Below, piece after piece: positions 13,586 to 32,800 of a DNA stretch of 63,036 nucleotides. The stretch's first letter is position 1. Each line of letters begins with the position of its first letter. Position numbers and translations under genes: made by a program. This stretch comes from Elusimicrobiota bacterium (GTDB taxonomy: Bacteria; Elusimicrobiota; Elusimicrobia; UBA1565): contig JACRDU010000154.1 of NCBI GenBank assembly GCA_016218495.1, positions 1 through 63,036 of the forward strand, in the 5' to 3' direction. The notes under the pieces are model-generated. The model searched no databases, was not told the origin of the DNA, and worked only from the letters and a program-made list of their open reading frames with translations.

Positions 13586-13617
13586 AACTAGTATAACAGA
13601 CTAGTTTAATTTGTCCA
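13586..13617 (-). promoter_or_regulatory. Promoter and operator of the Phd/VapC module, overlapping the oleD stop
   Basis: Minus strand: -35 TGGACA (13617-13612), 16-base spacer, -10 TATACT (13595-13590), ATG 7 bases further. An inverted repeat AACTAGT-N7-ACTAGTT (13586-13592 and 13600-13606) covers the -10 and spacer and is a good operator candidate for Phd. The right arm contains the oleD TAG stop (13601-13603). Confidence 0.55.
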
Positions 13618-14605
13618 GCCCCTTTCTTGCCGCGGACGCCCTCAGACGCTCGAGCCCTTCCTCTATAGTCACTTGCGGGGCATACCCCAGGTCGCGCCGG
13701 GCGGCGCTCAGGTCGAACCAGTGGTGGGTGGTCAGCTCCTCGGCCATGAAGCGGGTCATACGCGGCTCTGATGCGATGCCCAGGAGCCCATAGACGGTCT
13801 CAAGCACGGCGCCGGCCAAGCGGGCCATGCCGGGTGAGACCGACTTCGTCACCGGCGGGGCCCCGCTGGCGGCCAATATCCTGCCCACCAGGTCCCACAG
13901 CTCCAGCGGCTCGCCGTTCGAGATGAAGTAGGCCTTTCCCGCGCAGGGCGCGCCCGGCGCCAGCTTCTCGGCGGCAAGCAGATGCGCGTCCACCGCGTTG
14001 TCGATGAAGGTCGAATCCACCTTGCAGGGGCGCCCGGAGATGCGGCGCAGGGCTCCCGATTTCGCCCGGGAGATCAGGCGAGGGACGATATGGTTGTCAC
14101 CCGGACCCCAGATGAGGTGGGGACGCAGGGCCACGACGGCGAGGTCGGGGCCGTTAGCGGCCAGCACCATCCTCTCGGCTTCGGCCTTCGTGCGCGGATA
14201 GGCGGCCAGGAAATGGTCGGGGTAGGGCGCGGACTCGTCGGCGCCCTCAAGGTCCTTCCCCCCCACCACGCTGGGAGAGCTGGTGAAGACCAGGCGCCTC
14301 ACCCCGTGGCGCCTGCAGGCGTCGAGGACGTGCCTGGTCCCCTCCACGTTGGATTTCCAGAATTCGTCCTCCGGCCCCCAGACTCCGGCCTTGGCGCCCG
14401 CGTGGAAGACGAGGTCCACGCCCGCGACGGCCTCCGAGACGGCTCGCGCGTCGCACAGGTCGCCTTGGAAGAGCTCCACCCCGGGCTTTTTGAGCTCGGG
14501 ATAGTCTCCGCGCGAGAAGCTCCGGGCCTGATGCCCCTTGGCGAGCAGGGCGCGCACGATGCCGGAGCCGAGGAAGCCCCCGCCGCCGGTGACCAGGGCC
14601 TTCAT
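13601..14605 (-). CDS. oleD: OleD: NAD(P)H-dependent 2-alkyl-3-oxoalkanoate reductase
   Basis: 334 residues, extended short-chain dehydrogenase fold. The nucleotide-binding motif VTGGGGFLG is at 5-13; the active-site Ser/Tyr/Lys triad is FTSSPS (~110) and Tyr136-x3-Lys140 in AAYPRTK. In head-to-head hydrocarbon synthesis OleD reduces the beta-keto acid made by OleA to the beta-hydroxy acid used by OleC. The name rests on the SDR type plus its place directly after oleA-oleB-oleC; alone it could pass for a 3-beta-HSD/epimerase-like protein. The ATG at 14605 overlaps the oleC stop (ATGA); an upstream in-frame ATG at 14710 would lie deep in oleC. Confidence 0.9.
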   Translation of the reverse strand: MKALVTGGGGFLGSGIVRALLAKGHQARSFSRGDYPELKKPGVELFQGDLCDARAVSEAVAGVDLVFHAGAKAGVWGPEDEFWKSNVEGTRHVLDACRRHGVRRLVFTSSPSVVGGKDLEGADESAPYPDHFLAAYPRTKAEAERMVLAANGPDLAVVALRPHLIWGPGDNHIVPRLISRAKSGALRRISGRPCKVDSTFIDNAVDAHLLAAEKLAPGAPCAGKAYFISNGEPLELWDLVGRILAASGAPPVTKSVSPGMARLAGAVLETVYGLLGIASEPRMTRFMAEELTTHHWFDLSAARRDLGYAPQVTIEEGLERLRASAARKGLDKLN

Positions 14606-16236
14606 GCCAGGCGCGCGGCGGCCCAGACGGACAGGCTCTCGCGCTGGATTTTTGCGTTGTGCCGGATGTCCACGGGCAGGGAGGGATGGAACAGGATGTC
14701 TTCCAGGCACTTGCTCTCAGGGAAGCCGGCTGCCAGGTCCAGCAGCTCCGCGCGCAGGGCGGCGTCCCCCGGGCGCCCGCGCTCCGGCTGGACGACGAGG
14801 ACGGGGCGTTGGGCGCCCTTCGGGCCGACGCCGACCAGGGCGGCCATGCGCACGCCGTGATGGGCGTTGAAGATGCCCTCGACCCTGTCGGTGTAGAGCG
14901 GCCCCTTCGCCGTCTCGACGCGCTGGGACTTGCGCCCGCAGAACCAGGCCCGGCCGGCTTGGTCGATGAAGCCCAGGTCGCCCATGCGGTGTCCGACGGA
15001 GCCGTCCGGGAAGCGGACCTTGGCCAGCGCGGTGGCCTCCGGGCGTTCGAAGTAGGAGAGGGTCACCTGCGGGCCCCTGACCAGGAACTCCCCCACCTCG
15101 CCGGAGGGCAGGGCCAGGTCGTCGGACCAGTCGGGGACGGGGGCGTCGAGGATGCGCATCACTCGCAGGTCGACTCCGTTCAGGGGACGGCCGACGCAGG
15201 TGCCGAGCCCCTTGGCCGCGTCCGCCGCGGTCTGGGCCAGGACCTCCCGCGACCCCACGGCGCAGACCGGCAGGGCCTCGGTGGCGCCGTACGGCGTGTG
15301 GATCTCGGCGTCGCCGGTCAGCATCGCACTGACCCGGCGCAGCACCTTGGGCGTGACGGGTGCCCCCGCGGAGAGGACGCGCTTGAGGGAGGGCAGCAGC
15401 ACGCTGTCCTCCTGCGCGGCCCGGCCGACCCTGTCGAGCAGGGCCGGGGAGCCGAAGAGGTTCGTGACCTTGTAGAACCGCACGGGGTCGAGGATGTTGC
15501 GGGGGTTGACCGACCCCGGCCGGGTGAAGTCCATGTCCGGAATCACCGCCGTCATGCCGAGGGCGGGGTCGAAGAGGCCGAAGAGCGGGAAAGTCGCCAG
15601 GTCGGTCTCCCCCGGCTCGATGCCGAAGCGCGTGCGCAGGAGCTCCACCTGGGCGGCGAAGTTCCCGTGCGTATAGAGGGCCCCCTTCGGCGCCCCCGTG
15701 CTACCGGAGGTGAAGAGCACGGCGGCGGGCTCATCGGGGGCCGTCGGGGCCGCCGGGAAGTCCTCCGTGCCGGCCCGGCGCACGGAGTCGAGGGTCGGGG
15801 TCCCCGGCCAGCCAACCGGCCCGGCGACGACGCTGATGCGCACGCTGTCCCGCGCCCAGCCGAAGAGCTGGCGGGCGGCGTGAGCCAAGGGGACGCCGAG
15901 GAAGACCTCGGGGGCGGCCTCCTCCAGGCAGCGGCCGAACGCCTGCCGCCCGAGGCCGGGGTCGATGAGGACGGGCACGGCGCCCAGCCGGAACAGCGCG
16001 AAGGCGGCGGCGAAGAAGTCGGGCCCGGGGCGGATCATCACCGCGGCGCGCATGCCGCGCCGCACGCCGTAGGCGGCCAGGCCGGAGGCCACCCGGGCGC
16101 AATCGGCTTCGAGGGCCTTGAAGGAGACGGAGTGGGCGCGGCCGCCCTGCAGGAAGACCATCGCCAGGGCGTCGGGGCGGCTCGCGGCCATGCGGGTGAC
16201 GGCCTCGGCGATGTTGACCGGGGGGGCGGGCGTCAT
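14602..16236 (-). CDS. oleC: OleC: AMP-forming beta-lactone synthetase
   Basis: 544 residues, ANL superfamily. Motifs: P-loop FTSGSTGAPKGALYTH (175-190), TPYGATEALP, GHRMGDLGFID, and C-terminal VDIRHNAKIQRESL with the conserved Lys. OleC adenylates a 2-alkyl-3-hydroxy acid and closes the beta-lactone rather than making a CoA thioester (family knowledge). The fatty-acid-like binding domain and the position between oleB and oleD support OleC over an ordinary acyl-CoA ligase. The start ATG at 16236 overlaps the oleB stop (ATGA), and the stop overlaps the oleD start. Confidence 0.92.
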   Translation of the reverse strand: MTPAPPVNIAEAVTRMAASRPDALAMVFLQGGRAHSVSFKALEADCARVASGLAAYGVRRGMRAAVMIRPGPDFFAAAFALFRLGAVPVLIDPGLGRQAFGRCLEEAAPEVFLGVPLAHAARQLFGWARDSVRISVVAGPVGWPGTPTLDSVRRAGTEDFPAAPTAPDEPAAVLFTSGSTGAPKGALYTHGNFAAQVELLRTRFGIEPGETDLATFPLFGLFDPALGMTAVIPDMDFTRPGSVNPRNILDPVRFYKVTNLFGSPALLDRVGRAAQEDSVLLPSLKRVLSAGAPVTPKVLRRVSAMLTGDAEIHTPYGATEALPVCAVGSREVLAQTAADAAKGLGTCVGRPLNGVDLRVMRILDAPVPDWSDDLALPSGEVGEFLVRGPQVTLSYFERPEATALAKVRFPDGSVGHRMGDLGFIDQAGRAWFCGRKSQRVETAKGPLYTDRVEGIFNAHHGVRMAALVGVGPKGAQRPVLVVQPERGRPGDAALRAELLDLAAGFPESKCLEDILFHPSLPVDIRHNAKIQRESLSVWAAARLA

Positions 16237-17135
16237 CGGACCGCGGCGGCCGGATGCGCGGCGAGGAAGCCCTTCACGAGGCGGGCGGCCGCCTCGGGCT
16301 CGTCTTCGAAGATGTAGTGCCCGGACTCGGGGAAGGCGTGGAACTCGGCCTCGGGGCAGCGCCGCCGCCATTCGGAGAGGAACTTCGCGTCGAAGACGAA
16401 GTCGCGCTCGCCCCACAAGACGAGCTTCGGCACGGAGGCCAGGCCGCCGAGGCCTTCCTGGGTGGCCTTGGCGAAGGCCCAGGCCCGGTCTCCCTCGCGC
16501 ATCGGGATGTCCTCGACGAAGCGCAGCGTGGCGATGCGTTCGGCCCAGGAGCCGTAGGGCGCCGTGTAGAGGCTCCTGACCTCGCGGCTCATGGGGCGCT
16601 TGGTCACGCAGAACCGGGCCGCCCCCGCCGAGAAGGCGTTGAATCCCCTGACGAGCAGGGCGCCCAAGGCCGAACGGGCCAGGGCCAGCTGCCATGGCAG
16701 CAGGCCGCCGGGGGGCATCATGAAGGCGGCGGTATTGGCGAGCACGATGCGGGAGATCCTCTCGGGATGGCGCACGGCATAGGACATCCCTATCATCCCC
16801 CCCCAGTCGTGCAGCACCAGCGTCAGCCCCTTCGTGAGGGAGAGGTGTCGGAGGAGGGCGTCGAGGTCTGCCACGCGCCGCTCGAGCGTGTAGTCGTAGC
16901 GGTCGTCTCCCGGCTTGTCGGAGAGGCCCATCCCGATGTGGTCGAGCGCCACGCAGCGGTAGGCCGGCGACAGGGCCGATACCAGGCCGCGGTACAGGAA
17001 GGACCAGCTGGGGTTGCCGTGCACGAAGACCACCGGCTCCCCGCTCCCCTCGTCGATGTAGTGCAGCCTGTGTCCGGCGATGTCCAGGAAGCGGGACTTG
17101 AACGGGTAGTGCTTCCTCAGCAGGGCGTCGTCCAC
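16233..17135 (-). CDS. oleB: OleB: alpha/beta-hydrolase beta-lactone decarboxylase
   Basis: 300 residues, haloalkane-dehalogenase-like fold. Motifs: oxyanion loop VFVHGNPSWSFLYR, nucleophile Asp110 in LHDWGGMIG (an Asp nucleophile, as in OleB and haloalkane dehalogenases), acid region LWGERDFVFD, catalytic His in ESGHYIFEDEP. OleB converts the cis-beta-lactone from OleC to the cis-olefin with loss of CO2. Taken alone it would be called a haloalkane dehalogenase; the neighbours decide. GTG start one base after the oleA stop. Confidence 0.92.
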   Translation of the reverse strand: MDDALLRKHYPFKSRFLDIAGHRLHYIDEGSGEPVVFVHGNPSWSFLYRGLVSALSPAYRCVALDHIGMGLSDKPGDDRYDYTLERRVADLDALLRHLSLTKGLTLVLHDWGGMIGMSYAVRHPERISRIVLANTAAFMMPPGGLLPWQLALARSALGALLVRGFNAFSAGAARFCVTKRPMSREVRSLYTAPYGSWAERIATLRFVEDIPMREGDRAWAFAKATQEGLGGLASVPKLVLWGERDFVFDAKFLSEWRRRCPEAEFHAFPESGHYIFEDEPEAAARLVKGFLAAHPAAAVR

Positions 17136-17136
17136 C

Positions 17137-18195
17137 CTACCACTCCCAGCCCAGCATCAGGCAGTTGAGGCCGCTGCCGATGCCGAGGAAGGCGACCTTG
17201 TCGCCCGGCACGATGGCTTCGCGCTCCTCGGCCAGGGCGGCGGTCAGCGGCAGGGAGACCGTGCCGATGTTGCCGAGGTGCTCATAAGTGGTGAAGTCCT
17301 TCTCTTCGGGGATGCCGAAGGCGGCCAGGATCTCCTTCTGGTGGCCTTTGCCGACCTGATGGCAGACGACCTTGTCGACCGCCTCAGGCGTCCAGGCCAG
17401 CCCCTCGAGGAAGGCCTTCCAGCAGTCACGGCCCAGGGCCACGCCGTTTTTGAGCACGGAGACCGCGTCGGTGCGCATCACCTGCTCCACGGGCTGTCGG
17501 GAGCGAAAGCCGTTCTTGGGCAGGGGCTCGAGGCCCCAGCGGCAGATGCGGTGGTGCTCGGGGGCCGCTCGGAAGGCCCCGCCGAGCAGGCGCCGGCGGC
17601 GGGAGCCGAAGGAGCCGTCGGTCAGGAGGACGGCCACCGCGCCGGAGCCGCCGGTCAGCGTGGCCAGGGAGTCCTTGAAGGAGTCGAGCCCGGCGTCCGC
17701 GCCCATCCGCTCGATGGTGGCCTCGTTGATCTCGCGCGCCGTCTCACAGGAGACGACCAGGCCCGCGCGGATCTGTCCCAGCTCGATGCGGTTGGCGACC
17801 TCCACGATGCCGTTGAGCACTCCCAGGCAGGCGTTGGAGATGTCGTAGACCGCCGCGCCGCCGCCGACGCCCAGGGCCTCGGCCACGGCGCAGGCCGTGG
17901 CGGGCTCGAACTGCTCCCGGCAGACGCCGCCGTAGACGAGCGCGCCCAGGTCCGAGGCCCGCACTCCGGAAGCCTCGAGGGCCTTCCTTCCGGCCCGGGT
18001 CGCCCCCTCCGAGAGCCTGAACCCCGGCTCCCACCAGCGCCGCTCGCGGATGCCGGTGAAGGCCTCGAGCTGACCGGGGGAGAGGTGCAGCGTCGTGTAG
18101 GTGCGCTCCAGGCGCGATTCGAGCTCGGCCGAGCCCACGACGACCGGCGCCAGTTCATAGCCGAAGGCGTCGAGATGGACCTTCGAATACCTCAC
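17137..18195 (-). CDS. oleA: OleA: thiolase-superfamily head-to-head acyl condensing enzyme
   Basis: 352 residues, the family length. It matches OleA landmarks I know from Xanthomonas OleA: Cys123 in DISNACLGVLNGI, Glu97 in CREQFEPATA (the Glu that reaches the partner active site), His279 in VCHQVGKGH, Asn309 in EHLGNIG, and the C-terminal LGIGSGLNC block. OleA joins two fatty acyl thioesters by a non-decarboxylative Claisen reaction to a 2-alkyl-3-ketoacid. The GTG at 18195 overlaps the stop of the giant synthase gene (GTGA), so its translation is coupled to the polyene synthase. FabH is a weaker alternative, since the Glu and LGIGSGLNC signatures argue for OleA. Confidence 0.94.
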   Translation of the reverse strand: MRYSKVHLDAFGYELAPVVVGSAELESRLERTYTTLHLSPGQLEAFTGIRERRWWEPGFRLSEGATRAGRKALEASGVRASDLGALVYGGVCREQFEPATACAVAEALGVGGGAAVYDISNACLGVLNGIVEVANRIELGQIRAGLVVSCETAREINEATIERMGADAGLDSFKDSLATLTGGSGAVAVLLTDGSFGSRRRRLLGGAFRAAPEHHRICRWGLEPLPKNGFRSRQPVEQVMRTDAVSVLKNGVALGRDCWKAFLEGLAWTPEAVDKVVCHQVGKGHQKEILAAFGIPEEKDFTTYEHLGNIGTVSLPLTAALAEEREAIVPGDKVAFLGIGSGLNCLMLGWEW

Positions 18196-21100
18196 GCGTC
18201 CGCCGCGCTGAGGGAGAATCCCTTCATCTGATAGATGAGCAGGCCGTCCACGCTCAGGAAGCCGTCGGCCGTGACGCGGCGGGCCGCGTCGTCGTATTCG
18301 GTCACCACGGCCTCCACGGTGACGAGCGAGTTGCGGGGCACGACCTGCCCGCGGTAGACCCACTCGTGCGGGCGGCCGAGGGCCATCGGCGTGAACCGGG
18401 CGGAGGGCGCGACCGAGGCCGCCCAGCGGCGGCGGGCCAGATGCTTCAGGAGCTGTTGGAAGGATTCGAGGCCCAGCGAGCCGGGGCAGACCGGGTCTTG
18501 GTAGAAGTGCGCCTTGAAGAACCACTCGCCCGGGTCGACCTTCTTGACCCCGCGGATGAAGCCCAGCCCCTTGGGCCCCCCGGAAGGGTCGAGGACGGTG
18601 ATGGAGTCGAGCATGCTGAAGCCGCGTTCGGGGAGGGCCAGGGGCGGGGCGGCGGCGCGGACCTCCCCGGGGCCGGCTGGAGCGTCCGTGGCGGGGGCCC
18701 AGGGGGTCACGCCGAGGATCCCCTTCTGGTCGCTCAGGGCTTCCTTCGAGAAGAAGCCGAAGTAGGTGGTCCCCTTGTAGACGAGGCGCTCCCCGGCGCG
18801 GACCTCCAGGTCGTAGTCCTGGATGATCATCCCCACGGATTGCGAGACCTTCGTCATCTTCACCCGGGTGGACAAGGTCCCCGTGTCCGGGAATACCTCG
18901 GAATGGAGGACGGCCTTGCCGCCCAGGTTCCGGAACGACAGGTCGGTCTCGGAGCGCAGCGCCGAGCCCAGATAGGCCGCCAGCCAGCCGCAGGGCTGCA
19001 GCGCCGCCTCGAGGAGGACCCCGAAGGGCATGCTCCTCTGGCGGTTGGCCTTGAAGTACCAGGCGTCGGGCTCCACGTCGTGTTCGGCGACGACGGCGCC
19101 GCCCGCCTCGAGGACGAAGGGGCAGCAGCCCGAGATGTCCACGATGCGGTCGAGGAACTTGTAGGGAGGGCCGGGCAGGCGGGCGATGACCCGCTCGGCG
19201 TCGAAGACCCTGTAGGGCGCGCCGAAGGCCTCGGAGGGCTTGCCGACGGCGAAGGCCGTGATGCTGGCGTCGTCGAAGAGGACCTTCTTGTCGGGTGCAG
19301 CCCGGCGCCCGGCCCAGAGGGCCTCGACCTCGTCGCGCGTCGCCCCGGCCAGGCGGCAGGACATGTCGGTGATGAGGACGACGGGCTTGCCGTCCGAGTA
19401 CATCAGGGCGTCGGCGACGGCGTAGGGCTCGGGCCCGTAGCCCAGCTCCTTGATGGAAATCTCATAGACGACCTTCTTCGTCGTCGCCAGGACCTGCCCG
19501 CGGCACTTGAGCTGGGACTTCACCCCCGGCACCGGCTCGAATCGGCCTTCCCCGCCCTTGATCCAGCCCAGGCGCATCAGATGGACCCGCAGGGTGTGCA
19601 TGCAGCACTCATACATGAGCGTGCCGGGCATCACCTGGTCGTCGACGAAGTGGCAGGTGATGAACCAGTCGTCGGGGTGGATGTCCGCTTCGGCGCGTAT
19701 GAGGCCAAGGCCGTATCGCCCGCCCGCCGGGTCCAGGCTCAGCACGCGGTCCAGGAGCTTCATGCGCGCGCCCCCGGCCCCGGGCAGCCTCAGCGGCGAG
19801 TCGATGCCGGAGAAGGCGGGGCCGAACGCGGCGGCCGGGACGCCGCGGCGCAGGGCTTCGACGGCGGCCTCATCGTAGGCGACGGGGCCGGCCGGCATCG
19901 GGGCCAGCGGCTTCCAGTCCGCGGGACGCTTGCCGGGGACGGGGCGCTTGTCCAACTCGGTGAAGACGATGCCCTTCCCGGCGTCCAGAGCCGCCGCCGT
20001 GAAGAAGCCGGCGCAGCCCTTGCGCATCGTCAAGAGGGGCTTCCCTTCCACGGTCGAGTCGAACTCGAAGAAGAAGAGCCAGGTATCGCCCTGCTGCGTG
20101 AAGCGCAGGATGCGGATGTCGTAGCGGATGACCGCGCCGGGGGCGGGCAGGGCGTCATGGAAGGTCACCACGGCGTCGAGCAGGCGGTAGACGGCCTTGC
20201 CCTTCGTCATCGAGTCGATCCCGAGGTAGCCCGAAAGGAAGAGGTCGGCCTGGCCGGCCTCAACGGCGATGCAGGTGGGGATCCTGCCGCCGTCGAGGTA
20301 CCAGGCGTCCGGCAGGATGTCGTGTTCGGTCGTCACGGCTCCCGAGCCCATGGAGTTGGGCGTGCCGCTCACCGCCGTGATGCGGTCGGCCAGCATCAGA
20401 GGCTCGTCGGGCAGGCGAACCCGGGTCGGGTAGGAATCGACGTGGGCGAAGGCCTCCCCGAGGACGGCGCCGATCTTCCCGACGGCGAACTCCATGCAGG
20501 CCTTGCGGTCCATGAACGGCGCCGGACCCGCGGGCGCCGGGGCGACCGGCGCCGCCGGCGCGGGCAGGGCCCCGCCCTGAAGGAGGGCGGCCTGCAGGGA
20601 TAGGGCCCGCCCCTGGAGCTCTGCGCTGACCGAAGCCAGCTTGAGGAACTGGGCATGGGCCGAGGCCCGCGCGTCCTGGGCGTCCTGGAAGCCTTTGGTG
20701 AGGGTCGACGCCGGAGCGGGGCGCTCGAGGACGGCCACCGGTACGGATGAGGGAGCCGGGACGGCCGGCCGGGGGCGCGGCGCGGGCGCCGGGGCCGCCG
20801 GACTGGGCGCGGGAGCGATGGGGGCTCGGAGCCGCGGCGCGGGCGGCTCGCGCCGGACGATGAGCGGACGCCGGACCGGGATGACGACGGAGCCGTCCCT
20901 GGAGGCCTCGGGAGGACGGTGGCCGACCGCGGCGGTGGCCTCGCCGTAAAGGCGCCCCAGGTCGACCGGGACGCGCTCGGCGGCCAGCATGCCGAGCAGG
21001 CGCAGGACGGTGGAGACGTCGTCCTGGTCGCGCACGCAGGCGGAGCGCGCGGCATGGGGCTTGCCGTCCAGGATCTTCGCCACCATCCGCGAACAGGTGT

Positions 21101-24100
21101 TGCGGGGCCCCATCTCGAGGAATATGCGGACGCCGTCGTCGTAGGCGCGCGTGATGACGGCGGGGAAGTCGACCCCGTTCAGGGCCTGGGCGGTGACGGC
21201 GTCGGCCGCGCTCTCGCTCGTGACGGGGTAGGGCCGCGCCCACGCTCCGCTGTAGACCTGGACCCCTTCGGGCGCCGTCGTCGGCAGGAGGTTCAGGGCC
21301 CGGTAGGCGTCCTCGACCTCGCGGGCGACGCCGCAATGCAGGGTGGTCACCCCGTGCAGCGGCAGGAAGGTCCCCCCGACCCCCTCGACGAGCTTCTTCA
21401 CCGCATGGCGGGCCCCGCCGACCACGCACTCCTTGGGGGTGTTGACGATGAGGAGGAAGACCTTCTCCATCTTGTCCGTGGTCGCGCGCACCAGCTTCTC
21501 GGGGCGGTCCACGACGCCCAGGACCCAATCCACGGCCTCGTGGGCGGCCAGGCCCCAGCTGCGCCGCGCGGCGTTGCACGGGCCGGCCAGCTCGCTCACG
21601 AAGAGCGGCGAATCCTCGATGCGCCGCAGCATCTCGTCGCGGTCCCGCCAGGCGCGCGTCGCGACGAGCGAGGCGCTCTCCCCGAGGCTGTAGCCGATGG
21701 CGGCGGACGGCTCCACCCCGAAGGAGCGCACGAGGTCGCTGATGACCGCCCCGTGGGAGACCTGCCCGATGATCATCGACTTGTGGTCCTGGGCCAGGGT
21801 CTCGAGGGCGGCGTCCTGCCAGCCTTCGGGCCAGGACAGGCGCCATGGCGCGAAGAGCTCGGGGACGAACTGGTCCTTGAGCCGGCCGACCTCGCCGTCG
21901 AGGGCGCGGAACACCTCCGGCCATTGGGCGGCGGCGCCGAGCCCCATGCCGATGTATTGGTTCCCCGAGCCCGGGAAGACGAAGGCCGTGCGGCCCAAGC
22001 GGCCGAGGGGCTCGGGCGAGTAGAAGACCCGGTCCAGGCCCTGGACGGGAGAGGCGGGGTCTTCGAGCAGGGACTTCTCGACGCCCAGGGCCTGGGCGCG
22101 CAGTTCGGCGGCGTCGCGCGCCACGAAGGAAACGGCGTGGGCCCGGCGTGCGGTGGCCGGGGAATGGCCCCACCAGGCGCGGGCCAGGGACTCGATGCCC
22201 ATCGAGGAGGAGTCTTCGAGCCATGTGCGCAGGCGGCGGGCCGCGAGGATGAGCTCGGGAGCGGAGTCCGCCTCGATGACGAAGAGGCCTTCCGGCCGGG
22301 CGCCCAGGGGTTGGCGGCGTTCAGCGGGCCGTTCGCAGTTGGGCGGGACCGCGTCGAGCTGTTCGAGCACGGCGTGAACGAAGTTCCCGCCGAGCCCCAT
22401 GGCCGACACGCCGGCGCGGCGCGGCCCTTCCGCCCGGTTACGCAGCCAGTACTGGGGAACGCGCGGCGCGTGGAAGCGGTCGGCGAACCCGTCGAGCTCG
22501 GCCCGCGCCTCAGAGATCTCGAGGGGGGGCAGGATCTCCTGATACAGGGCCAGGGACGCCTTCACGAAGGAGGCCAGCCCCGAGGCGGCCCCGGTGTGGC
22601 CGACGACCGGCTTGACGCTGCCCAGCGCCAGGCGGCGGCGGGGGGAACGGCCGCCGAAGAAGGCGGCCAGCGCCTTAGCCTCCGCCGCGTCCTCGGCGGG
22701 AGAGCCGCTGCCGTGCGTCTCGACGAATTCGACGGTCTGGGGGCGCAGGCCGGCGTCCTCATAGGCCCGCTCGAGCGCCAGGCCGTAGCCCTCGGCGGCC
22801 TGCGGCTCCTTCGCCGAGGCGGCGCCGATGCCGCGGAGCACCGCATAGACCCGGTCGCCGTCGCGCAGGGCGTCGTCGAGCCGCTTGAGGACGACGGCGG
22901 CGGCCCCTTCTCCAGGCACGCAGCCGTCGGCCGATTCGTCGAACGGCCGGGCCCTCCCGGACTTCGCGTAGGGGCGCAGGGCGTTGCGCGCCGCCAGGGC
23001 GCGGGGGTCGCCCGCCAGGTCCACGGCTCCGACCAGGGCGCAGTCGAGCTCCCCCCGCCTCAGGGCCGAGGCCGCCGCTTCGAGGGCGCGCAGCCCCGCG
23101 GTCTCGTCCGAGGCGATGGTGAAGCTGGGGCCTCCCGCCTTGAACTCGCGGGCGATGCGGCTGGCGATGATGCCGCCCAGCGCCCCCATCGTGCGGTTGG
23201 CCGACAGGGCCGGCCCCGCGGCGTCGCGGACCTCTTGGGGCATCGCCCAGCGCGCGTGGAAGTCCCCCGTGCGCGGGTCGAGCTCCATGCCGATGTAGAC
23301 GCCGGTATTCTCGTGGTCCCGGTTGAGGGCGCCGGCGTCCTTGAACGCGGCGTCGGCGGTCTGCAGCATCAGCACCTGCTGGGGCAGGAGGTCGGCGAGC
23401 TCCTTGGGCGGGATGCGGTAGGCTTGAGGGGCGACCGAGAGCTCCCCGATGAGCCGTTCGGAGGCCTCGGCCGGGAGGCGGCCTCCCAGGACGGCCTCCT
23501 GGAAGCGGCGCAGGCCCTTCAGGGCGCCGAAGCGGGCGGCCAGGCCCACCACGGCCACGTCGGGCCGGGGCTGTTCGGCGGGCGGCGCCGACTTCAGGCG
23601 GCCGCGGCGCACCCGCGAAGGGACATGTTCTTCGAGCAGGACATGGGCGTTGATTCCGCCGAACCCGAAGGCGGAGACGGCGGCGCGCCGGGGAACTCCC
23701 GATGCCCGCGGCTCCCAGGGCGCGGCCTCGGTCTGGACGCGGAACGGGGTCCCCTCGAGCTCGGAACCGACCGGAGTCCGGGAGAAGTTGGCGCTGGGCG
23801 GCAGAATCCTCTCACGCAGGGAGAGCAGCACCTTCATCGTCCCCGCGGCTCCGGCGGCCGTCAGCAGGTGCCCGACGTTGGACTTGACGGAACCCAGGGC
23901 GCACTGGGCGGGCTTCCAGCCCTCGGCGCCCCAGAGCTCGCGCAGGCTCTTGAGCTCGACGGCATCTCCGACGGGGGTCCCGGTGGCGTGGCACTCGACG
24001 AGGTCGATGTCGCGCGGCGACAGGCCGGCCTGACGGTAGGCCGCGCGCATGGCGCGCAGCTGGCCTCCGCCGTCGGGGGCCAGCAGCGAGCCTCCGATGT

Positions 24101-24962
24101 CGTTGGAGAGCCCCACCCCGCGGACGACGGCGTAGACCTTGTCGCCGTGGCGCAGGGCGTCCTCGAGGCGTTTGAGGACGAAGATGCCGGCGCCTTCCCC
24201 CACCACGAGGCCGTCTCCGGAAGCGTCGAGCGGGGATGGCCGGCCGGTGGGCGAGAGGGCGCGCAGCTGGGCGAATCCCATCTGGGTGTAGAGGCAGTCG
24301 GGGCGGGAGACGCCGCCCGAGAGCATGGCGTCGGCCCGGCCTTCGCGCAGGGCGTCCACGGCCAGCTTGAGGGCGTAGAGGGAGGACGCGCAGGCCGCGT
24401 CCAGGGTGAACCCCGCTCCTCCTAGCCCCAGGGCCTGGGCCAGGAGCCCTGCGGGCAGGCCCGCAGGGGAGAGGTCGTAGGGATGGGATTCCTGCGCGGG
24501 CGGCAGTGCTCGCCCCGCGGCCCTTTCGAGCTCCAGGGCGAAGTGGCGGCGGCCGAGGGCCGAGAAACGGTCCGTGGGCAGGGCGATGTTGCCGATGGCC
24601 ACGCCGACCCTGCGCCGGTCGACCTTCGCGGTCTCGGCGTCCCGCCAGGCGCTGCGCCCGGCATGGAGCGCGAAGTGGAAGACCGGGTCGAGCCCCGAGA
24701 GGAGGGAGGGGTCCAGCTCGAAGCCGGACGGGTCGAACTGGAACCCTTCCACGAAGCAGCCCCGCGTGGAGTAGACCTTGTCCGGGGAGGGACGAGGCTC
24801 CGCCGCGAAGGCCGCGCTCTTGGAGAGGAGCCAGCGTCCTTCGGGGGCGTCCTGCGCCGCGCAGACCTTGCGGGAGATGTTGGACCAATAGTCGGCCAGC
24901 GTCGGGGCCTTCGGGAACAGGCCGCCGATGCCGACGATGGCTACGGGTCCGTTATCCTTCAT
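18192..24962 (-). CDS. PfaB/C-type PUFA synthase subunit: KS-CLF-AT with four FabA-like dehydratase modules
   Basis: 2256 residues. Order: KS (~1-455; Cys191 in DAACASS, VECHATGT, SNVGHLLTAAG); second KS-like domain (~470-875) with the active Cys replaced by Glu620 (TIASDETAG), i.e. a chain-length-factor type; AT (~985-1370; Ser1092 in GYSLGES, PfaB-like); Pro/Ala linker (~1375-1480); then four hotdog modules. Modules 2 and 4 keep the FabA His (His1771 in TCHFVDDQVMPG; His2152 in KAHFYQDPVCPG), while modules 1 (~1480-1640) and 3 (~1930-2050) lack it, suggesting paired inactive/active double hotdogs. This KS-CLF-AT-DH order matches myxobacterial Pfa3 rather than Shewanella, where AT sits in a separate PfaB. 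No AGPAT or thioesterase follows. Acts with PfaA and PfaD. Confidence 0.93.
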   Translation of the reverse strand: MKDNGPVAIVGIGGLFPKAPTLADYWSNISRKVCAAQDAPEGRWLLSKSAAFAAEPRPSPDKVYSTRGCFVEGFQFDPSGFELDPSLLSGLDPVFHFALHAGRSAWRDAETAKVDRRRVGVAIGNIALPTDRFSALGRRHFALELERAAGRALPPAQESHPYDLSPAGLPAGLLAQALGLGGAGFTLDAACASSLYALKLAVDALREGRADAMLSGGVSRPDCLYTQMGFAQLRALSPTGRPSPLDASGDGLVVGEGAGIFVLKRLEDALRHGDKVYAVVRGVGLSNDIGGSLLAPDGGGQLRAMRAAYRQAGLSPRDIDLVECHATGTPVGDAVELKSLRELWGAEGWKPAQCALGSVKSNVGHLLTAAGAAGTMKVLLSLRERILPPSANFSRTPVGSELEGTPFRVQTEAAPWEPRASGVPRRAAVSAFGFGGINAHVLLEEHVPSRVRRGRLKSAPPAEQPRPDVAVVGLAARFGALKGLRRFQEAVLGGRLPAEASERLIGELSVAPQAYRIPPKELADLLPQQVLMLQTADAAFKDAGALNRDHENTGVYIGMELDPRTGDFHARWAMPQEVRDAAGPALSANRTMGALGGIIASRIAREFKAGGPSFTIASDETAGLRALEAAASALRRGELDCALVGAVDLAGDPRALAARNALRPYAKSGRARPFDESADGCVPGEGAAAVVLKRLDDALRDGDRVYAVLRGIGAASAKEPQAAEGYGLALERAYEDAGLRPQTVEFVETHGSGSPAEDAAEAKALAAFFGGRSPRRRLALGSVKPVVGHTGAASGLASFVKASLALYQEILPPLEISEARAELDGFADRFHAPRVPQYWLRNRAEGPRRAGVSAMGLGGNFVHAVLEQLDAVPPNCERPAERRQPLGARPEGLFVIEADSAPELILAARRLRTWLEDSSSMGIESLARAWWGHSPATARRAHAVSFVARDAAELRAQALGVEKSLLEDPASPVQGLDRVFYSPEPLGRLGRTAFVFPGSGNQYIGMGLGAAAQWPEVFRALDGEVGRLKDQFVPELFAPWRLSWPEGWQDAALETLAQDHKSMIIGQVSHGAVISDLVRSFGVEPSAAIGYSLGESASLVATRAWRDRDEMLRRIEDSPLFVSELAGPCNAARRSWGLAAHEAVDWVLGVVDRPEKLVRATTDKMEKVFLLIVNTPKECVVGGARHAVKKLVEGVGGTFLPLHGVTTLHCGVAREVEDAYRALNLLPTTAPEGVQVYSGAWARPYPVTSESAADAVTAQALNGVDFPAVITRAYDDGVRIFLEMGPRNTCSRMVAKILDGKPHAARSACVRDQDDVSTVLRLLGMLAAERVPVDLGRLYGEATAAVGHRPPEASRDGSVVIPVRRPLIVRREPPAPRLRAPIAPAPSPAAPAPAPRPRPAVPAPSSVPVAVLERPAPASTLTKGFQDAQDARASAHAQFLKLASVSAELQGRALSLQAALLQGGALPAPAAPVAPAPAGPAPFMDRKACMEFAVGKIGAVLGEAFAHVDSYPTRVRLPDEPLMLADRITAVSGTPNSMGSGAVTTEHDILPDAWYLDGGRIPTCIAVEAGQADLFLSGYLGIDSMTKGKAVYRLLDAVVTFHDALPAPGAVIRYDIRILRFTQQGDTWLFFFEFDSTVEGKPLLTMRKGCAGFFTAAALDAGKGIVFTELDKRPVPGKRPADWKPLAPMPAGPVAYDEAAVEALRRGVPAAAFGPAFSGIDSPLRLPGAGGARMKLLDRVLSLDPAGGRYGLGLIRAEADIHPDDWFITCHFVDDQVMPGTLMYECCMHTLRVHLMRLGWIKGGEGRFEPVPGVKSQLKCRGQVLATTKKVVYEISIKELGYGPEPYAVADALMYSDGKPVVLITDMSCRLAGATRDEVEALWAGRRAAPDKKVLFDDASITAFAVGKPSEAFGAPYRVFDAERVIARLPGPPYKFLDRIVDISGCCPFVLEAGGAVVAEHDVEPDAWYFKANRQRSMPFGVLLEAALQPCGWLAAYLGSALRSETDLSFRNLGGKAVLHSEVFPDTGTLSTRVKMTKVSQSVGMIIQDYDLEVRAGERLVYKGTTYFGFFSKEALSDQKGILGVTPWAPATDAPAGPGEVRAAAPPLALPERGFSMLDSITVLDPSGGPKGLGFIRGVKKVDPGEWFFKAHFYQDPVCPGSLGLESFQQLLKHLARRRWAASVAPSARFTPMALGRPHEWVYRGQVVPRNSLVTVEAVVTEYDDAARRVTADGFLSVDGLLIYQMKGFSLSAADA

Positions 24963-24965
24963 GGT

Positions 24966-27900
24966 TCAAGCGGCGAGCGGAGCGCGGAACGCCGCGGCCA
25001 GCGAGGCGTCGATGGTGTGCTCCGAGCCCTCGATGCGGGCGACCAGCGCGCCCTTGTCGTCGAGGAAATCGGCATCGGCCGTCGCGGACTGGCCGCTGTG
25101 GCGCGTCACGCGCAGCACCAGCCGCAAGCCCGACTTCGGGAAGTCCCTGAACTGGCGGTAGCGCCCGAGGAAGGAGGGCAGGCAGGGAGCGCCATGGAGT
25201 TCGACGGCCCAGAGGATGGCGGCCTGCAGCGCGCAGTCGAGCGCCAGGGGGTCCGCCAGCCAGCTCGAGCGCAGCGGCGTCTCGATCCACTCCGACGGGG
25301 CGGGAGCGGCTTTGAGCGCCGCCGTCAGGCCGTCAGGCCCGCACGAATCCACGGCGGCGATCCCTTGGAACGCCGGGCCGTGGAAGAGGACTTCCCCGTA
25401 GGCCTCGGCGGCCGAACGGGGATAAGGTCCCTGGGGCTTGAGCGCCGCCGGCGCCGGCGCGTCGGACCGCCGGCCGAGGAGGACGGTCCCCCGGGCGTGG
25501 ACCAGGCCGTCGGCGCCCTGCAGCTCGACCGGGACGCGGTACACGGCGCCGTCCTTGGAGGCCTTCCCGGCGCAGGCCTTCACCGCCCGCGGCCCGGAAT
25601 CGAGGATGACGCCTTTGAGCACGCGCAGGTCGTCGATGCCGCAGAATGCGAGGCCGGGATGGGCGTGCATCGCCCCGTGGCCGAGCCATTCCACCATCAT
25701 CGCCAGGGGCATGACGGGCTTGCCGTTGATGACGTGGGAGGCCAGGAACGGATGGGTCTTGGCGTCGAGCGTGCGCTCGAAGGCGACGGGGAGCTTCGCG
25801 GGCTCCTTGTCGACGGGCCGCTCGACGGCCCGCTCGACGGCCGTGGCCAGCTTCGTGGCGGTGACGACGGTCTCGGTCCCCGTCGCGCGGAGCTCGGCGA
25901 GCAGGTGCATGCCCCCGCCGCGCAGGGGCAGGAGCCCCACGCCCTCGGCCTCGAAGATCTTCTTGAGGGCGGGGGTGACCATCCCCCCCTCCCACGGCCC
26001 CCAGTTGATGGAGACGACGCGGGCGCCCTTGAGGCGGCGCGACAGGCTCTGGGCGGCCTTGTTTAGGGCCTCGTTGGCCATCGCGTAGTCGGATTGACCG
26101 ACCCGGCCGTAACGGCCGCTGACCGATGAGAAGAGCACCACGGCCTTGAGCGCCGCCGGGTCGACGGCTTCGAGCAGGGTCCGGAGCCCGGCCACCTTGG
26201 TGTCGAACACGGAGTCGAACAGCTCGGGGGTCTTTTCTTCGATGTGGCGGTCGGCCAGGACGCCCGCGCCATGGATGAGGGCGCGCACCGGCCCTGGAAG
26301 CCCCGTCAGCGCCGAGCGCACCGAGGCGGAATCCCTGAGGTCCGCCGCCCGGTAGAGCACCTTGGCCCCGGCTGCCTCGAAGCGGGAGATGTTGGCGGCC
26401 AGCTCGCGATTGGCCGTCAGGCGGCGGTAGGCCTCCTCGATGGCCTTGGGGGTGGGCTTGGAGCCGTTGAGGTTCTTCATCACCGCCTTCTTGATCTCGG
26501 CCTCGGCGGAAAGCCCCTTGAGCCAGTCGGGTTCGGCCGCCGGCGGCTCGGTGCGGCCCAAGAGGACGAGGACGGGCTTCACGGCCTCGACCAGCGCCAG
26601 CGCGGTCTCTGCGGTGACTCCCCGGGCGCCGCCCGTGACGACCACCACGTCCCCTTCGCCCAGCGGCAGCGGCCCCGCCCCGGCGGCGACGCTGCGCGTC
26701 TCCAGGCCCACGGCGCCGGAGGCGGACAGGCCGACTTCGGCCGGGCCGGAGAGGCTGAGCTCGGAGATGACCGCTCGGGCGGCGGCGTCGGAGTCGGCCC
26801 AGGCGCGGTCGCAGTCGAGGGCCTTGCAGCGCAGTTCGGGCCATTCCAGGCGCGCCGTCTTGGCCAGCCCGGCCAGCGCGCCGGAGAGCGGATCGGCGTC
26901 GTGGGGCAGCGTGCCCAGGCCGAAGGCCCCATCGAGCCGCGAGACGGTGGCGAAGACCGCGCCCGGATTGGCGCGCAAGAGCGGCGCGGCCGCCCTCACG
27001 AACTGGAAGGCGTCCTTGAGCCAGCGCTCCGAATCGGCCGACCACAGGCCGCGCCCGTCGAGGCTCCAGGAGGGAGCGACGACGACGAGGCCGCCGAGCT
27101 GGGCCGGGGCCTTGGGCGGCTTGCCGAACGCGACGGCCGTCGGCTTGTGGCCCAGGCTCTTGAGCTGGGCGATGAGGGCCTTGGGGAGCGCCGAGCCGTC
27201 GCCGAGGACCCAGAGCTCGGAGCCCGCGGGCAGGGCCGCCGGGCGGCGCGGCGTGTCGGCCAGGGAGACGGCTTCGAGGACCTGGCGTTCGATGACGGTC
27301 CCCGCGGCCTTCTGGATGGGGACGGCGGCAGGGAGCGGCTTGGCGGCGGGGACCGTGGAGACGGGAGCTGCGCCCTTGGACAGGAAGGCGATGATTTCGC
27401 GCAGGGTCCGCAGGGTCCCCACATGCTCGGGCCCTACGACGGGGGCCTCGGGCAGCCTGTCGCGCAGGGCGGCGAGTATCTCGACGCGCTTGATGGAGTC
27501 GATGCCGAGGTCGGATTCGAGCCCCATGTCGAGGTTGAGCGTCTCGGCCGGGTAGCCGGTCTTCTCGGATACGACGGCGAGGAGGGCTTCTCCCACCTTG
27601 CCCGAGGAGACCGAGGCAGGTGCGGGAGCAGGAGCCGGTGCGGCGGCTCCCGAGGTCAAGAAGGCGATGATCTGGCGCAGGGTGCGCAGCGTGCCCACGT
27701 GCTCGGGGCCCACGACGGGGGCCTCGGGCAGCCTGTCGCGCAGGGCGGCGAGTATCTCGACGCGCTTGATGGAGTCGATGCCGAGGTCCGACTCGAGCCC
27801 CATGTCGAGGTTGAGCGTCTCGGCCGGGTAGCCGGTCTTTTCGGATACGACGGCGAGCAGCGCCCCTTCCACCTTGGAGGCCGGGAGCCCGGCGGGGGCG

Positions 27901-30900
27901 GCGACGGGCGCGGGCGGCGCGCCCGCCTCCGTGCTCCCCGCTTTCATGAAGTCGATTATCTGGCGCAGGGTCCGGAGCGTGCCGACATGCTGCGGTCCGA
28001 CGACGGGGGCCTGCGGCAGCCGGTCGCGCAGGGCGGCGAGGATCTCGACGCGCTTGATGGAGTCGATGCCGAGGTCGGACTCGAGGCCCATGTCGAGGTT
28101 GAGGGTCTCGGCCGGATAGCCGGTCTTCTCGCTGACGACGGCCAGCAGGGTCTCGGCTATCTTCGAGCTCGAACTATCCGCGCGGACAGTCGCCGGCGCG
28201 GGCGAACTGGCCACGTGGGCGGTTGCGGGCATCGATGCCGGCGCGGCCGGCATGGCCGGGGGCCGCATCGAGACGGGAACTCCGCCGACGAAGCCGCGGG
28301 CCTGCTGCTCGATGAGGGCGAGGAGGGTGCGCTGGGCGGTCTCCTGGCTCTCAAGGTACTGCTTGTGGAGAGTGGAGGCCTGCTCCTGCAGGCGCTGCAG
28401 AGCGGCGATGCCTTCCTGCGTGATGCTGAGCGCGGCCGACGGCGCGGCGGCCGCCTGGACGGGAGCGGCGTAAGACGGCGCGTGGGGCTGCGCCGCTGAG
28501 GCGACCCTGGGCTGCGGCGGCATGGGGACGTCGCGCTTCGGGTTGACGGGCGTGGCGCCGCAGAGCGGCACGACGGCGCGGGACTTCTTGACCGGGACGG
28601 CGGCGGGCGAACCGTCGTCCTCCCAGGGCTTGAGGTCCACGGCGAGGCCGAGGGCGGCCAATTGGGCCAGGGCCTTGGCCAGGTCGGTCGTGCCCGAGCC
28701 GCGGCCGTTGGAGGCGTCGACGGAGAAGGAGGAGAAGTCCTTGCCCTTGAGGATGGCCTTGACGAGGCCCGTGAGGCGTCCGCCGGAGCCGACCTCGAGG
28801 AAGGTCCGCGCGCCGGCCTCGTGCATGGCCAGCACCTCGCGCATGAACTCCACGGGGGCGGCCAGCTGACCGGAAAGGAGGTCCTTGGCGGCGTCCTCGC
28901 CGTCGGGATAGAGGCCGGCGGTGGTGTTCGCGTAGACCGGGAAGGCGCCTTTCTTGAGGGGCATCGGGGAGAGGCCTTCGCGCAGGGGCCCCTTCGCGTC
29001 CGAGACGAGGCTGCTGTGGAAGGCGGCCGCCACGGGGAGCATGGTGTTGCGGATGCCGCGGGCGTCGAGGGCCCTCGCGGCCTTCGCCACCGCCTCCTTC
29101 GAGCCGGAGAGGACGCCCTGCTCGGGCGCGTTGCGGTTGGCGAGGACGACGTCGAGCTTCTCTTCGGCGAGGACCTTCTCGATCTCGGCGAGCGGGGCCA
29201 GCGCGGCCAGCATGGCGCCCTTGTCCCCCCCGCCGGCGGCCATCAGGCGCCCGCGCAGGCGGGAGAGCTTGAAGAGGTCGGGCGTCGACAGCCTGTCCGC
29301 GGCCCACAGCGCGGTCAACTCGCCGTAGCTGTGGCCGGCCGCCATCTGGGGCTTCACGCCGAAGCGGGCGAGGACGCCCGCCGCCCCGACGCTGACGGCG
29401 CCGAGGGCCGGCTGGGCGTTGTCGGTGGCGCGCAGGACGGCCTCGTGCGCGTCGCGCGCGGCGGGGGTGAAGGCGGGCTGGGGATAAAGACGGTCGCTGA
29501 GCCGTTCGCCGAGCGCCGCGTCGGCGGCGGCGAGGGCGTCGAGCATCTCGGGGAACTGGCAGGCCAGGTCGCGGCCCATCCCCACATACTGCGAGCCCTG
29601 TCCGGGGAAGAGGAAGGCGAGACCGCCTTCCGGGGCCCCCGTGCCGACGAAGGCGGCGTCGGGCTTGACGGGCTTGCCCTTTTCGACGACGGCGGCCAGG
29701 CGGCAGGGTGCCGTCCGGTCGAATTCGCGGCGGGACTGACCCGCGGCGGCGCGGAGCTCCGCCCAGGGCAGGGCTTCCAGGGCCTTGAGACGCGCGCGCA
29801 GGCCGGCCTCGTCGGGGCCCGAAAGGGCGACGAGCTCGACGGACCCGTCCCAGTCCACCCCGGTCCGGGCCGCGCCGTGCTCCTCCAGCACGGCGTGGAA
29901 GTTCGAACCGCCGAAGCCGAACGCGGAGACGGCCGCGCGCCGCGGATGTCCGGCCGTGGGCAGCCACGGGCGCTTCTCGGTGTTGACGTAGAGCGGGATG
30001 TCCCCGGCCGCCAGCTCGGCAAGGGGTTCGCTCACCTTGATGGTGGGCGGCAGGACCTTGTGCTTGAGGGCCAGCACGGCCTTGATGAGGCCGGCGGAGC
30101 CGGCGGCGGCCTTGGTGTGCCCGATGTTGGACTTGACCGAGCCCAGGGCGGCCCAGGTCCCCTCGGCGCGGGCCTTGCGGTAGACCTCGGTCAGCGCGAG
30201 CACCTCGGCGGCGTCGCCGACCTTCGTGCCCGTGCCGTGGGCCTCGACGAGCTCGACGGTGTCTGGGGAGACTCCGGAGAGCTCATAGGCGGCGCTCAGG
30301 GCCTTCACCTGCCCCTCGGAGCTGGGAGCGTAGATGGCCTTGCCCCGGCCGTCGGACGAGGTGCCGATGCCCTTGAGCACGGCGTGGATGCGGTCGCCGT
30401 CGCGCTCGGCGTCGGCGAGGCGCTTGAGGACGACCATCCCGATGCCTTCGCCGAGGATGGTGCCGTCGCCCTTCGCGTCGAAAGGCTTGGAATCGCCGGT
30501 CGGCGAGAGGGCCGGCGTCTTCGAGAAGCACATGTACATGAATATGTCGTTGAAGGTGTCGACCCCGCCGGTGACGACCATGTCGGCGTGGCCGGAGACC
30601 AGCTCCATCCCGGCCATGTGGGTCGCGCTCAGCGAGCTGCCGCAGGCCGCGTCCACGACGCAGTTCGTGCCGCCGAGGTTCAGGCGGTTGGCGATGCGGC
30701 CGGCCACGACGTTGCCGAGCAGGCCTGGGAAGGAGTTCTCCTGCCAGTCCACGTAGGAGTCGGAGATGCGCTTGACCACGGCGTCGGCCGTCGGGCCTTC
30801 GATGCCGGCCTCCTTGAGGGCGTTGCGCCAGATGGGATGCCCCAGGCGGGCGCCGAGCGGGATGGCCAGCTCCAGCGTCCCGGTGACGCCGAGGATGACG

Positions 30901-31262: not shown

Positions 31263-32800
31263 GCGAGGAGTCTCTCTTTGCCGAGGGATTCTTGGAGCCG
31301 GTCGAGGGTCTGCGGGGAGAAGCGGGCGAGCTCAGGTGCGACGGCGGCGCCCTGTACGCGCAGGATGTTGAGGCGTGTGAGATACGCCGCGCCGAGCAGG
31401 AGGTTGAGGGCCACGACGGCGGCCTGGCGTTCGGCTGGGGCGGCCAGGAAGCTGCCCTTGGCCCATTCGTTGAAGGCGCCCATGGCGGGGCCGCACCAGA
31501 CCTGGTAGTCCATCCGGCGCGCGGGGTCTCCGGCGTTGGCCCAGCGCGAGGCCAGCCCCAGGTACCAGCGGAACACCAGCGCCATGCGGTGCTTGGGGTC
31601 GGCGTCGCCCTTGGCGGCCTCGCGCGGGTCGCGCTTGAGGAAGAACTCGCGGGTCTGGGCCCAGATGGTCTCGAGGGGCGCCTTGAAGAGGTTCTTTTCA
31701 AGGAAGGCCCGCTCCGCCGGAGGGATGGCGTCCATCGAGGGGTATTCGTCGTAGACTTCGTAGAGCTTGGCCGCGCGCATCGCGAACATGGTGCCGCGCT
31801 TGAGGACCTGCACCTTCACGCCCATCTCGAACATGTCGGCGGCGGGAGCCATCGCCGTGTCGGCCTGCTGGGCCTCGGCGAGCATCTGGCGCACGGCGTC
31901 GCAGGTCCCCGACTCGACGCAGGCCTGGTTGACCGAGCCGGTGAGGACGTAGGCCGCGCCCATGGCGAAGGCGCCGGCGGCGGCGGCCGGCGTGGAGATC
32001 CCCCCCGCCGCACCGACGCGCAGAGGCATGGAGAAGGCGTGCTTGGCCTGCAGCTCGTCGCGCAGGGCGAGGAAGCTGGGCAGCATGCTGACCAGCGGGC
32101 GGTTGTCGGTGTGCCCGCCGGAGTCGGCCTCCGCCGTCACGTCCTGGGCGATGGACACTTCCTTCGCCAGGGCGGCCTGCTCGGCGCTCAGGTGCCCGGA
32201 GGCCACGAGCTCCTTGAGGATGCCGTCCGGAGCGGGCGCGAAGAACTTGCTGGCGACCTCGACGCGGGAGGCCTTGGCCACGACGCGGTTCGGGGTGAAG
32301 GCCTTCCCGTCCGGGCCGCGCCTGATGCCGTGCAGGCGGTAGCCCACCAGGGGCGTGGTCAGGCCCAGATAGGCCGAGGCTTCCACCAGCCGAACGCCCT
32401 TGCGGATGTAGAGGTCGGCGATGGCCGCTTCCAGGTCCGGCTCGTTGGGGCTGTGGATGAGGTTGAAGCCGAAGGGCAGGTCCCCGAGGGCGGCCTTGAG
32501 GCGGTCGATGGCCGCCTCCACGCGCTCGGGCGAGAGGCCGGCCGAGCCGAAGAATCCCAGCATCCCGGCCTTGGCGGCGGCCTCGACGAGGGCCTCGGAG
32601 GCGATGCCGTTGGCCATGGCCCCCGTGGCATAAGCGTACTTGAGGCCGTAATCCTTGATGAAGGAGGCGTCGCCGAGGGCTTCCGGAGCGACGGCAGGGA
32701 CGAGAATGTCGCCGTATCTGAAGGGGATGCGGACCCTCAGCAGGCTCTCACGCAGGATGTCGGAACCTGCCTCGGCGGGGATGGATTTGATGCTCGGCAC
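31259..32800 (-). CDS. pfaD: PfaD: FMN-dependent trans-acting enoyl reductase of the PUFA synthase
   Basis: 513 residues, the PfaD length, with a nitronate-monooxygenase/2-NPD-like TIM barrel. Signatures: [46 protein letters not shown] (active-site His region), [20 protein letters not shown] and YVLTGSVNQ (FMN phosphate site), and the PfaD-specific C-terminal helical part [13 protein letters not shown]. It reduces selected enoyl-ACP double bonds, deciding where unsaturation stays. The GTG start has AGGA upstream (32805-32808). First gene of the seven-gene operon, overlapping pfaA by 4 bases. Confidence 0.95.

Follow-up and report, generated by a model that had tools for sequence, protein, structure and literature searches.

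Gene clusters for Pfa (polyunsaturated fatty acid, PUFA) synthases with a fused pfaBC gene were tied to ole genes by Shulse & Allen (2011), the product in Geobacter bemidjiensis being a C31:9 hydrocarbon (PMC3098273). Subsequently, Allemann et al. (2019) found that E. coli lacking fadD and carrying the S. pealeana Pfa synthase with OleA made a 31:8 ketone, and that an active-site mutant of OleA cut eicosapentaenoic acid (EPA) as much as the wild-type protein did; they placed OleA on the acyl carrier protein (ACP) domains of PfaA, inferred acyl-ACP as its substrate, and described PfaT as a type II thioesterase and not as the releaser (PMC6463001). Product release from PUFA synthases is still debated, the candidates being hydrolysis by an acyltransferase (AT) domain, transfer to another carrier, a C-terminal AGPAT domain and OleA. 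Here, we analysed contig JACRDU010000154.1 (63,036 nt) of the Elusimicrobiota bacterium assembly GCA_016218495.1, the whole of which is called the window below, and in which pfa and ole genes form one operon. The linkage of fused pfaBC to ole (2011) was known already and the unloading of Pfa ACPs by OleA had been proposed (2019), and the window is a further member of this kind; added here are how widespread and how nearly obligate the pairing is, the separation of pfa-type OleAs as a subfamily, for which candidate residues and an insert are given, and the placement of AGPAT-type synthases in a different lineage. Our analysis suggests that the operon probably serves to make a polyunsaturated long-chain hydrocarbon, with OleA taking the chains from the PfaA ACPs as their main, but not necessarily only, exit.

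The host genome (4.15 Mb, 95% complete), which has Elusimicrobia metagenome-assembled genomes as its nearest named relatives, carries the seven genes on the minus strand of the window in the order pfaD-pfaA-pfaBC-oleA-oleB-oleC-oleD, with the following features:

31259..32800, minus strand: pfaD, Pfa synthase enoyl reductase; NCBIfam TIGR02814 pfaD_fam, 627.7 bits (cut-off 449); Pfam NMO and FabD_helical_ins.
24966..31262, minus strand: pfaA, KS-MAT(GHSYGE)-ACPx3-KR-DH; TIGR02813 omega_3_PfaA, 1541.6 bits (cut-off 1010); three LGIDSI carrier motifs; domains from Pfam.
18192..24962, minus strand: pfaBC, KS-CLF-AT-four hotdogs (two FabA-like DH pairs), without a C-terminal AGPAT; Pfam ketoacyl-synt x2, Acyl_transf_1, FabA x4.
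21678..21695, minus strand: nucleophile motif GYSLGE of the PfaB-type AT, aa 1090-1095, Ser1092; from a motif scan.
21336..21338, minus strand: catalytic His1209 of the AT (GVTTLHC); from an alignment of order-mates.
17137..18195, minus strand: oleA, head-to-head condensing thiolase; Glu97, Cys123, His279, Asn309; insert at aa ~221-236; matches to OleA structures in the PDB.
16233..17135, minus strand: oleB, beta-lactone decarboxylase, an alpha/beta hydrolase in the haloalkane-dehalogenase group; Pfam Abhydrolase_1 and NCBIfam haloalkane dehalogenase models.
14602..16236, minus strand: oleC, beta-lactone synthetase (AMP-binding enzyme); Pfam AMP-binding; its likely ATG start overlaps the oleB stop (ATGA).
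13601..14605, minus strand: oleD, NAD(P)H-dependent 3beta-HSD-like reductase; Pfam 3Beta_HSD, 2e-54; ATGA overlap with oleC.

From pfaD to oleD the junctions measure -4, +3, -4, +1, -4 and -4 nt, with the oleC start set at 16236; this ATG overlapping the oleB stop is our choice, and a longer oleC frame would give -19 nt instead of -4. The preliminary description of this DNA had placed the oleA start codon within the pfaBC stop, and indeed the two genes share GTGA at 18192-18195, the TGA of pfaBC overlapping the GTG of oleA. The GTG start of oleB follows 1 nt past the oleA stop. Since the genes 5' of pfaD are apparently oriented oppositely, as judged by eye, the operon seems complete; a phosphopantetheinyl transferase (PPTase)-family protein is encoded elsewhere in the genome. 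By family models, with PfaD and PfaA over the curated cut-offs, and by domain order, the synthase is of the fused-pfaBC Pfa (PUFA) type, and homology predicts a polyunsaturated acyl chain as its product. The best PDB match of PfaBC is 6riw, whose chain is named ORF10, and its second KS-type domain is without the Cys, as expected for a CLF. A hydrolase, an AMP-binding beta-lactone synthetase and a reductase, the OleBCD set, are all linked to oleA, although OleC scores under the strict cut-offs of both NCBIfam beta-lactone synthetase equivalogs (636.5 bits for the olefin beta-lactone synthetase model, cut-off 900).

The window OleA matched the solved OleA structures 3fk5 (E 1.6e-54) and 3row (E 2.8e-53) and retains, by alignment columns, Glu97, Cys123, His279 and Asn309, the residue set expected of an OleA. 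We take these to be the equivalents of Glu117, Cys143, His285 and Asn315 in Xanthomonas campestris OleA. In the mechanism that we propose, the three carrier domains of PfaA would carry a polyunsaturated acyl chain while PfaD, PfaA and PfaBC assemble it. OleA would dock at these domains, and its Cys123 would take over one of the chains through exchange of the thioester. A second acyl thioester would be activated by Glu97, the presumed equivalent of the Glu117 lent by the partner subunit in the X. campestris enzyme; condensation of the two chains and hydrolysis would give a beta-keto acid, and both chains would thereby come off the synthase through OleA. OleD would then reduce this product, OleC would close the beta-lactone and OleB would decarboxylate it to a polyene olefin, and the PfaB-type AT may stay as a second exit or act in a late acyl-transfer step. 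ACP is preferred as the donor because of the evidence from fadD-null E. coli (Allemann et al., 2019). Consistent with OleA as an ACP unloader are the near-overlapping seven-gene operon, the E/C/H/N set, the co-occurrence with PfaBC in 33 of 97 Elusimicrobiota relatives and the separate OleA subfamily, the last two of which are set out below. Transfer of the polyene from ACP to OleA had been suggested in the preliminary description; given the in vivo evidence from Shewanella and the strict coupling seen here this is the best-supported reading, but it was proposed already in 2019 and is not called for by a missing off-loader, on which that suggestion had been built, as a PfaB-type AT is present.

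To relate the two proteins across genomes, PfaBC and OleA were searched for separately in the 97 Elusimicrobiota relatives, 33 of which had both, two PfaBC only, two OleA only and 60 neither. OleA was thus present in 33/35 genomes with PfaBC and in 2/62 without it (Fisher p 4e-21, uncorrected for kinship). One of the two PfaBC-only genomes holds an AGPAT-type synthase (G006, see below) and the other is 73% complete; the two OleA-only genomes are 77-79% complete. Among 392 Planctomycetota genomes, this PfaBC was found in 50, and an OleA-like gene in 46 of the 49 PfaBC-bearing genomes searched, two of the three without it having the AGPAT and pfaD-next kinds of synthase described below; in a third, mainly Desulfuromonadales-type sample, 26/30 genomes had an OleA-like gene, but 10 of the 26 had only a divergent homologue of 28-40% identity that lacks neighbouring oleBCD, both of these samples having been chosen by the presence of PfaBC. 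Even among 18 genomes picked mostly for showing no oleA beside pfaBC, 15 had OleA somewhere in the genome. The combination of this PfaBC end and a neighbouring oleA recurs, far beyond chance, in Elusimicrobiota, Desulfuromonadales/Geobacterales, Planctomycetota, Gammaproteobacteria, Verrucomicrobiota, Gemmatimonadota and one Acidobacteria metagenome-assembled genome (MAG). Two further MAG records that hold the cluster, L057 and L085, are titled Klebsiella pneumoniae and Akkermansia muciniphila; these titles are probably misassigned, and we give those species no credit for it.

This near-obligate pairing also bears on a scheme with two parallel products, in which the AT would release PUFA to membrane lipid and OleA would only skim off a shorter ACP-bound intermediate, as in Shewanella that produce EPA. 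Such a division of labour is the published Shewanella model (PMC6463001) and agrees with the retention of the AT in the window PfaBC, but ole is here near-obligate with this PfaBC type and lies inside the operon, unlike in Shewanella, which suggests a hydrocarbon as the main product. We give the scheme an appreciable chance, though one short of even; it is compatible with OleA as the main exit, so that our confidence in the two overlaps and the two do not compete for a single whole.

In one Elusimicrobiota family (loci L016, L024, L019, L033, L038 and L039), the gaps on either side of pfaBC, to pfaA and to oleA, contain one or two conserved genes that by eye look lipoprotein-like. They may connect the product to the outer membrane; as release enzymes, those between pfaBC and oleA were set aside, their products looking lipoprotein-like or unrelated by eye.

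In the OleA tree, a quick one with a one-matrix model and 15 outsiders only, a branch with 100% support separates the pfa-linked OleAs from ole-only OleAs and divergent homologues. Trp220, Gly282 and Arg325 are among the residues fixed in the pfa-linked proteins and absent or rare outside, and the position of Lys275 is basic in 95% of them. An insert ahead of the helix after aa 238 is frequent in this group, its length being 9 aa for Geobacter types, 15 aa for the window protein and 49-74 aa for several Planctomycetota and Gammaproteobacteria (L137, L135, L139, L112, L095 and others). As a strict marker of pfa linkage the insert was rejected, about 30 pfa-linked Elusimicrobiota OleAs being without it. 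By alignment to E. coli FabH, it would lie beside the ACP-docking Lys214 region, which is a lead rather than a test. We put forward only tentatively that the pfa-linked OleAs are a dedicated subfamily acting, through ACP recognition, as the normal release enzyme of this type I iterative synthase, with the variable insert (aa ~221-236) and subfamily residues, Trp220, Gly282 and Arg325 among them, forming part of a docking or channel surface. Five planctomycete loci (L218, L219, L220, L242 and L253) have a pfa-type oleA with no oleBCD nearby, and would be expected to yield a ketone unless oleBCD lie elsewhere.

Regarding the synthase itself, the preliminary description held that PfaBC stops right after the fourth hotdog and carries no off-loading domain. 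The first part is borne out by Pfam, which gave four FabA-like stretches, nothing beyond them and no PlsC/AGPAT domain, so that the C-terminal AGPAT of myxobacterial Pfa3 is lacking; in order-mates, the tails past the hotdogs measure at most 12 aa, save for one of 111 aa that runs over oleA and is apparently a frame artefact. The second part had to be given up, as PfaBC contains a PfaB-type AT between CLF and DH (GYSLGES with Ser1092, and His1209). Its motif is distinct in type from that of the PfaA loading MAT (GHSYGE), and Tyr rather than His before the Ser separates PfaB from MATs according to the 2026 PfaB crystal-structure paper (PMC12895367). A GxSxG motif with this Tyr and the catalytic His (TLHC) are thus both in place, and their Ser-His spacing is 117, as compared with 116 in S. 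baltica PfaB (PMC12895367). Gly-x-Ser-Leu-Gly and the His were conserved in 25/25 readable order-mates, GYSLG being found in 24 and Leu replacing Tyr in one. Because the PfaB-type GYSLGES and His are present and kept in order-mates, the window synthase carries what is the standard off-loader among AGPAT-less Pfa synthases. PfaB has been described as a late-stage or terminal acyltransferase with possible off-loading to a carrier (PMC12895367), terminal transfer or off-loading has been reported for PfaB-type ATs (PMC12895367, PMC8003026), and hydrolytic off-loading is ascribed to Hayashi 2020 and Almendariz-Palacios 2021 (cited in PMC12895367).

Two further features of these proteins were seen. 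Glu1178 (window PfaBC aa 1174-1183, NTPKECVVGG) is nearly always found in the AT of oleA-linked PfaBCs, and related ATs seem to have Gln; a Gln at such a site, putatively the column of PfaB Gln539, is reported to steady the acyl-enzyme in PfaB. In L186 (11491-11961) and L187, the synthase is extended at the C-terminus of PfaBC by a fused tail of 157-165 aa that contains two DNA-binding domains of the HTH_3 type.

A domain search of the operon genes upheld the statement that no thioesterase is encoded between pfaD and oleD. Genome-wide, five matches to the 4HBT family were found, one of them weak and MaoC-like and none on the window contig, so that the cluster is not one associated with pfaT (orf6); a genome-wide search for an alpha/beta-hydrolase type II thioesterase (PF00975) found none. 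As candidates for PfaT the 4HBT proteins were rejected, their PDB matches being other thioesterases (YbgC-like with a receiver domain, THEM4-like and others) and none pointing to PfaT, with Orf6 not among the queries. The YbgC-like protein, fused to a response-regulator receiver domain, is encoded at L045:2590-3708 (contig C22 of genome G000).

Several of these results weigh against OleA as the unloader of ACP. Characterised OleAs take acyl-CoA in vitro (PMC7064751), the acyl-ACP evidence comes from the Shewanella Pfa synthase, of another lineage than that of the window (PMC6463001), an off-loading-type AT with intact residues is present in every order-mate checked, and the genome does contain the five 4HBT-family proteins. 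The chain might accordingly leave through the AT first, either released as the free acid or passed to CoA or some other carrier, with an unlinked ligase making the CoA thioester if needed and OleA condensing acyl-CoA. The Ser-His dyad conserved within the order, the reports of hydrolysis or terminal transfer by ATs of this kind (PMC12895367, PMC8003026) and the in vitro use of acyl-CoA would all fit this route, but the 31:8 ketone was made in a fadD-null host (PMC6463001), hydrolysis followed by re-activation costs ATP, and the near-overlap of pfaBC and oleA favours a direct hand-over. We consider this order of events unlikely.

The preliminary description had also proposed that OleA replaces AGPAT. 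To compare C-termini with and without a downstream oleA, we used 147 distinct PfaBCs, 105 of which have oleA downstream (66 within 60 nt), a linkage rate inflated by the 33 loci that were fetched via OleA. This sample is without myxobacterial sequences, its draw labelled 'phylum of G106' contains Geobacter-type genomes, and its tree is unrooted. No oleA was within reach of 26 AGPAT-less PfaBCs, and 9 of the 147 lie too close to a contig end to judge. Seven have a tail of at least 285 aa resembling DH4 and/or AGPAT, called by eye from likeness to that of L189, and by length, the L189 tail itself matching Pfam PF01553 at E 0.0013, below the cut-off. Adjacent oleA was found in 0/6 AGPAT-type PfaBCs with enough flank, as compared with 105/131 AGPAT-less ones. 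The AGPAT-bearing PfaBCs form one distant lineage with 100% support, which includes a tailless member (L227), and all 105 oleA-linked PfaBCs fall on the other side of the tree. A third lineage, in which pfaD directly follows pfaBC, has neither AGPAT nor oleA. Two independent AGPAT pairs were found on the tree (treekit), neither differing in oleA linkage, and no independent swap was seen. Genome G006, from the window's own family and without OleA, encodes an AGPAT-type PfaBC (L222:3160-11700, 2847 aa) with a DH4-like and acyltransferase-like tail, which was probably acquired separately.

An evolutionary swap, with OleA assuming the release step after loss of AGPAT from an ancestral PfaBC-AGPAT, would account for AGPAT and adjacent oleA never occurring together, within the inflated rate given above, and for the planctomycete G926, which has one cluster of each kind (L228 and L231) lying separately. 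Against it stand the single distant AGPAT lineage on a tree that offers no informative independent pair, the third lineage with neither, and the AT, which is retained in AGPAT-type PfaBCs as well. Such a swap is very improbable, the unrooted tree leaving a small chance that AGPAT was lost. As AGPAT-bearing and oleA-linked PfaBCs fall in separate lineages without an independent contrast, what the data show is two types of synthase, each with an exit of its own, and not OleA taking the place of AGPAT.

Taken together, the compact operon, with its translational coupling of OleA to the synthase, and the separate OleA subfamily that accompanies it offer a clean system for the question of ACP versus CoA as donor, and polyene hydrocarbons are predicted in Elusimicrobiota, Planctomycetota and other uncultured groups. 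One of the closest described systems is the type I (letter I) secondary-lipid synthase of Shulse & Allen (2011) from Geobacter and Gemmata, which shares the fused pfaBC, pfaD, pfaA and, often, linked ole genes; the window differs as a high-GC Elusimicrobiota member whose oleA overlaps pfaBC. The pfaABCDE and oleABCD genes of Shewanella and Photobacterium (Allemann et al., 2019) likewise lead a Pfa polyene to OleA, with a PfaB-type AT and no AGPAT, but there pfaB is not fused to pfaC, the ole genes lie unlinked or in a neighbouring operon, and a pfaT (orf6) thioesterase is associated, as opposed to none in the window operon. The myxobacterial pfa1-pfa2-pfa3 genes (Aetherobacter, Minicystis) have the same order of ER, KS-MAT-ACP-KR-DH and KS-CLF-AT-DH, but their pfa3 has a terminal AGPAT, together with DH4 in Minicystis, whereas the window PfaBC is without both and belongs to a lineage other than that of the AGPAT-bearing PfaBCs in our myxobacteria-free sample. 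Finally, oleABCD of Xanthomonas and Stenotrophomonas encode the same four enzymes, with the same catalytic residues in OleA, but their acyl chains come from type II fatty acid synthase and their OleA belongs to another subfamily than that of the window.

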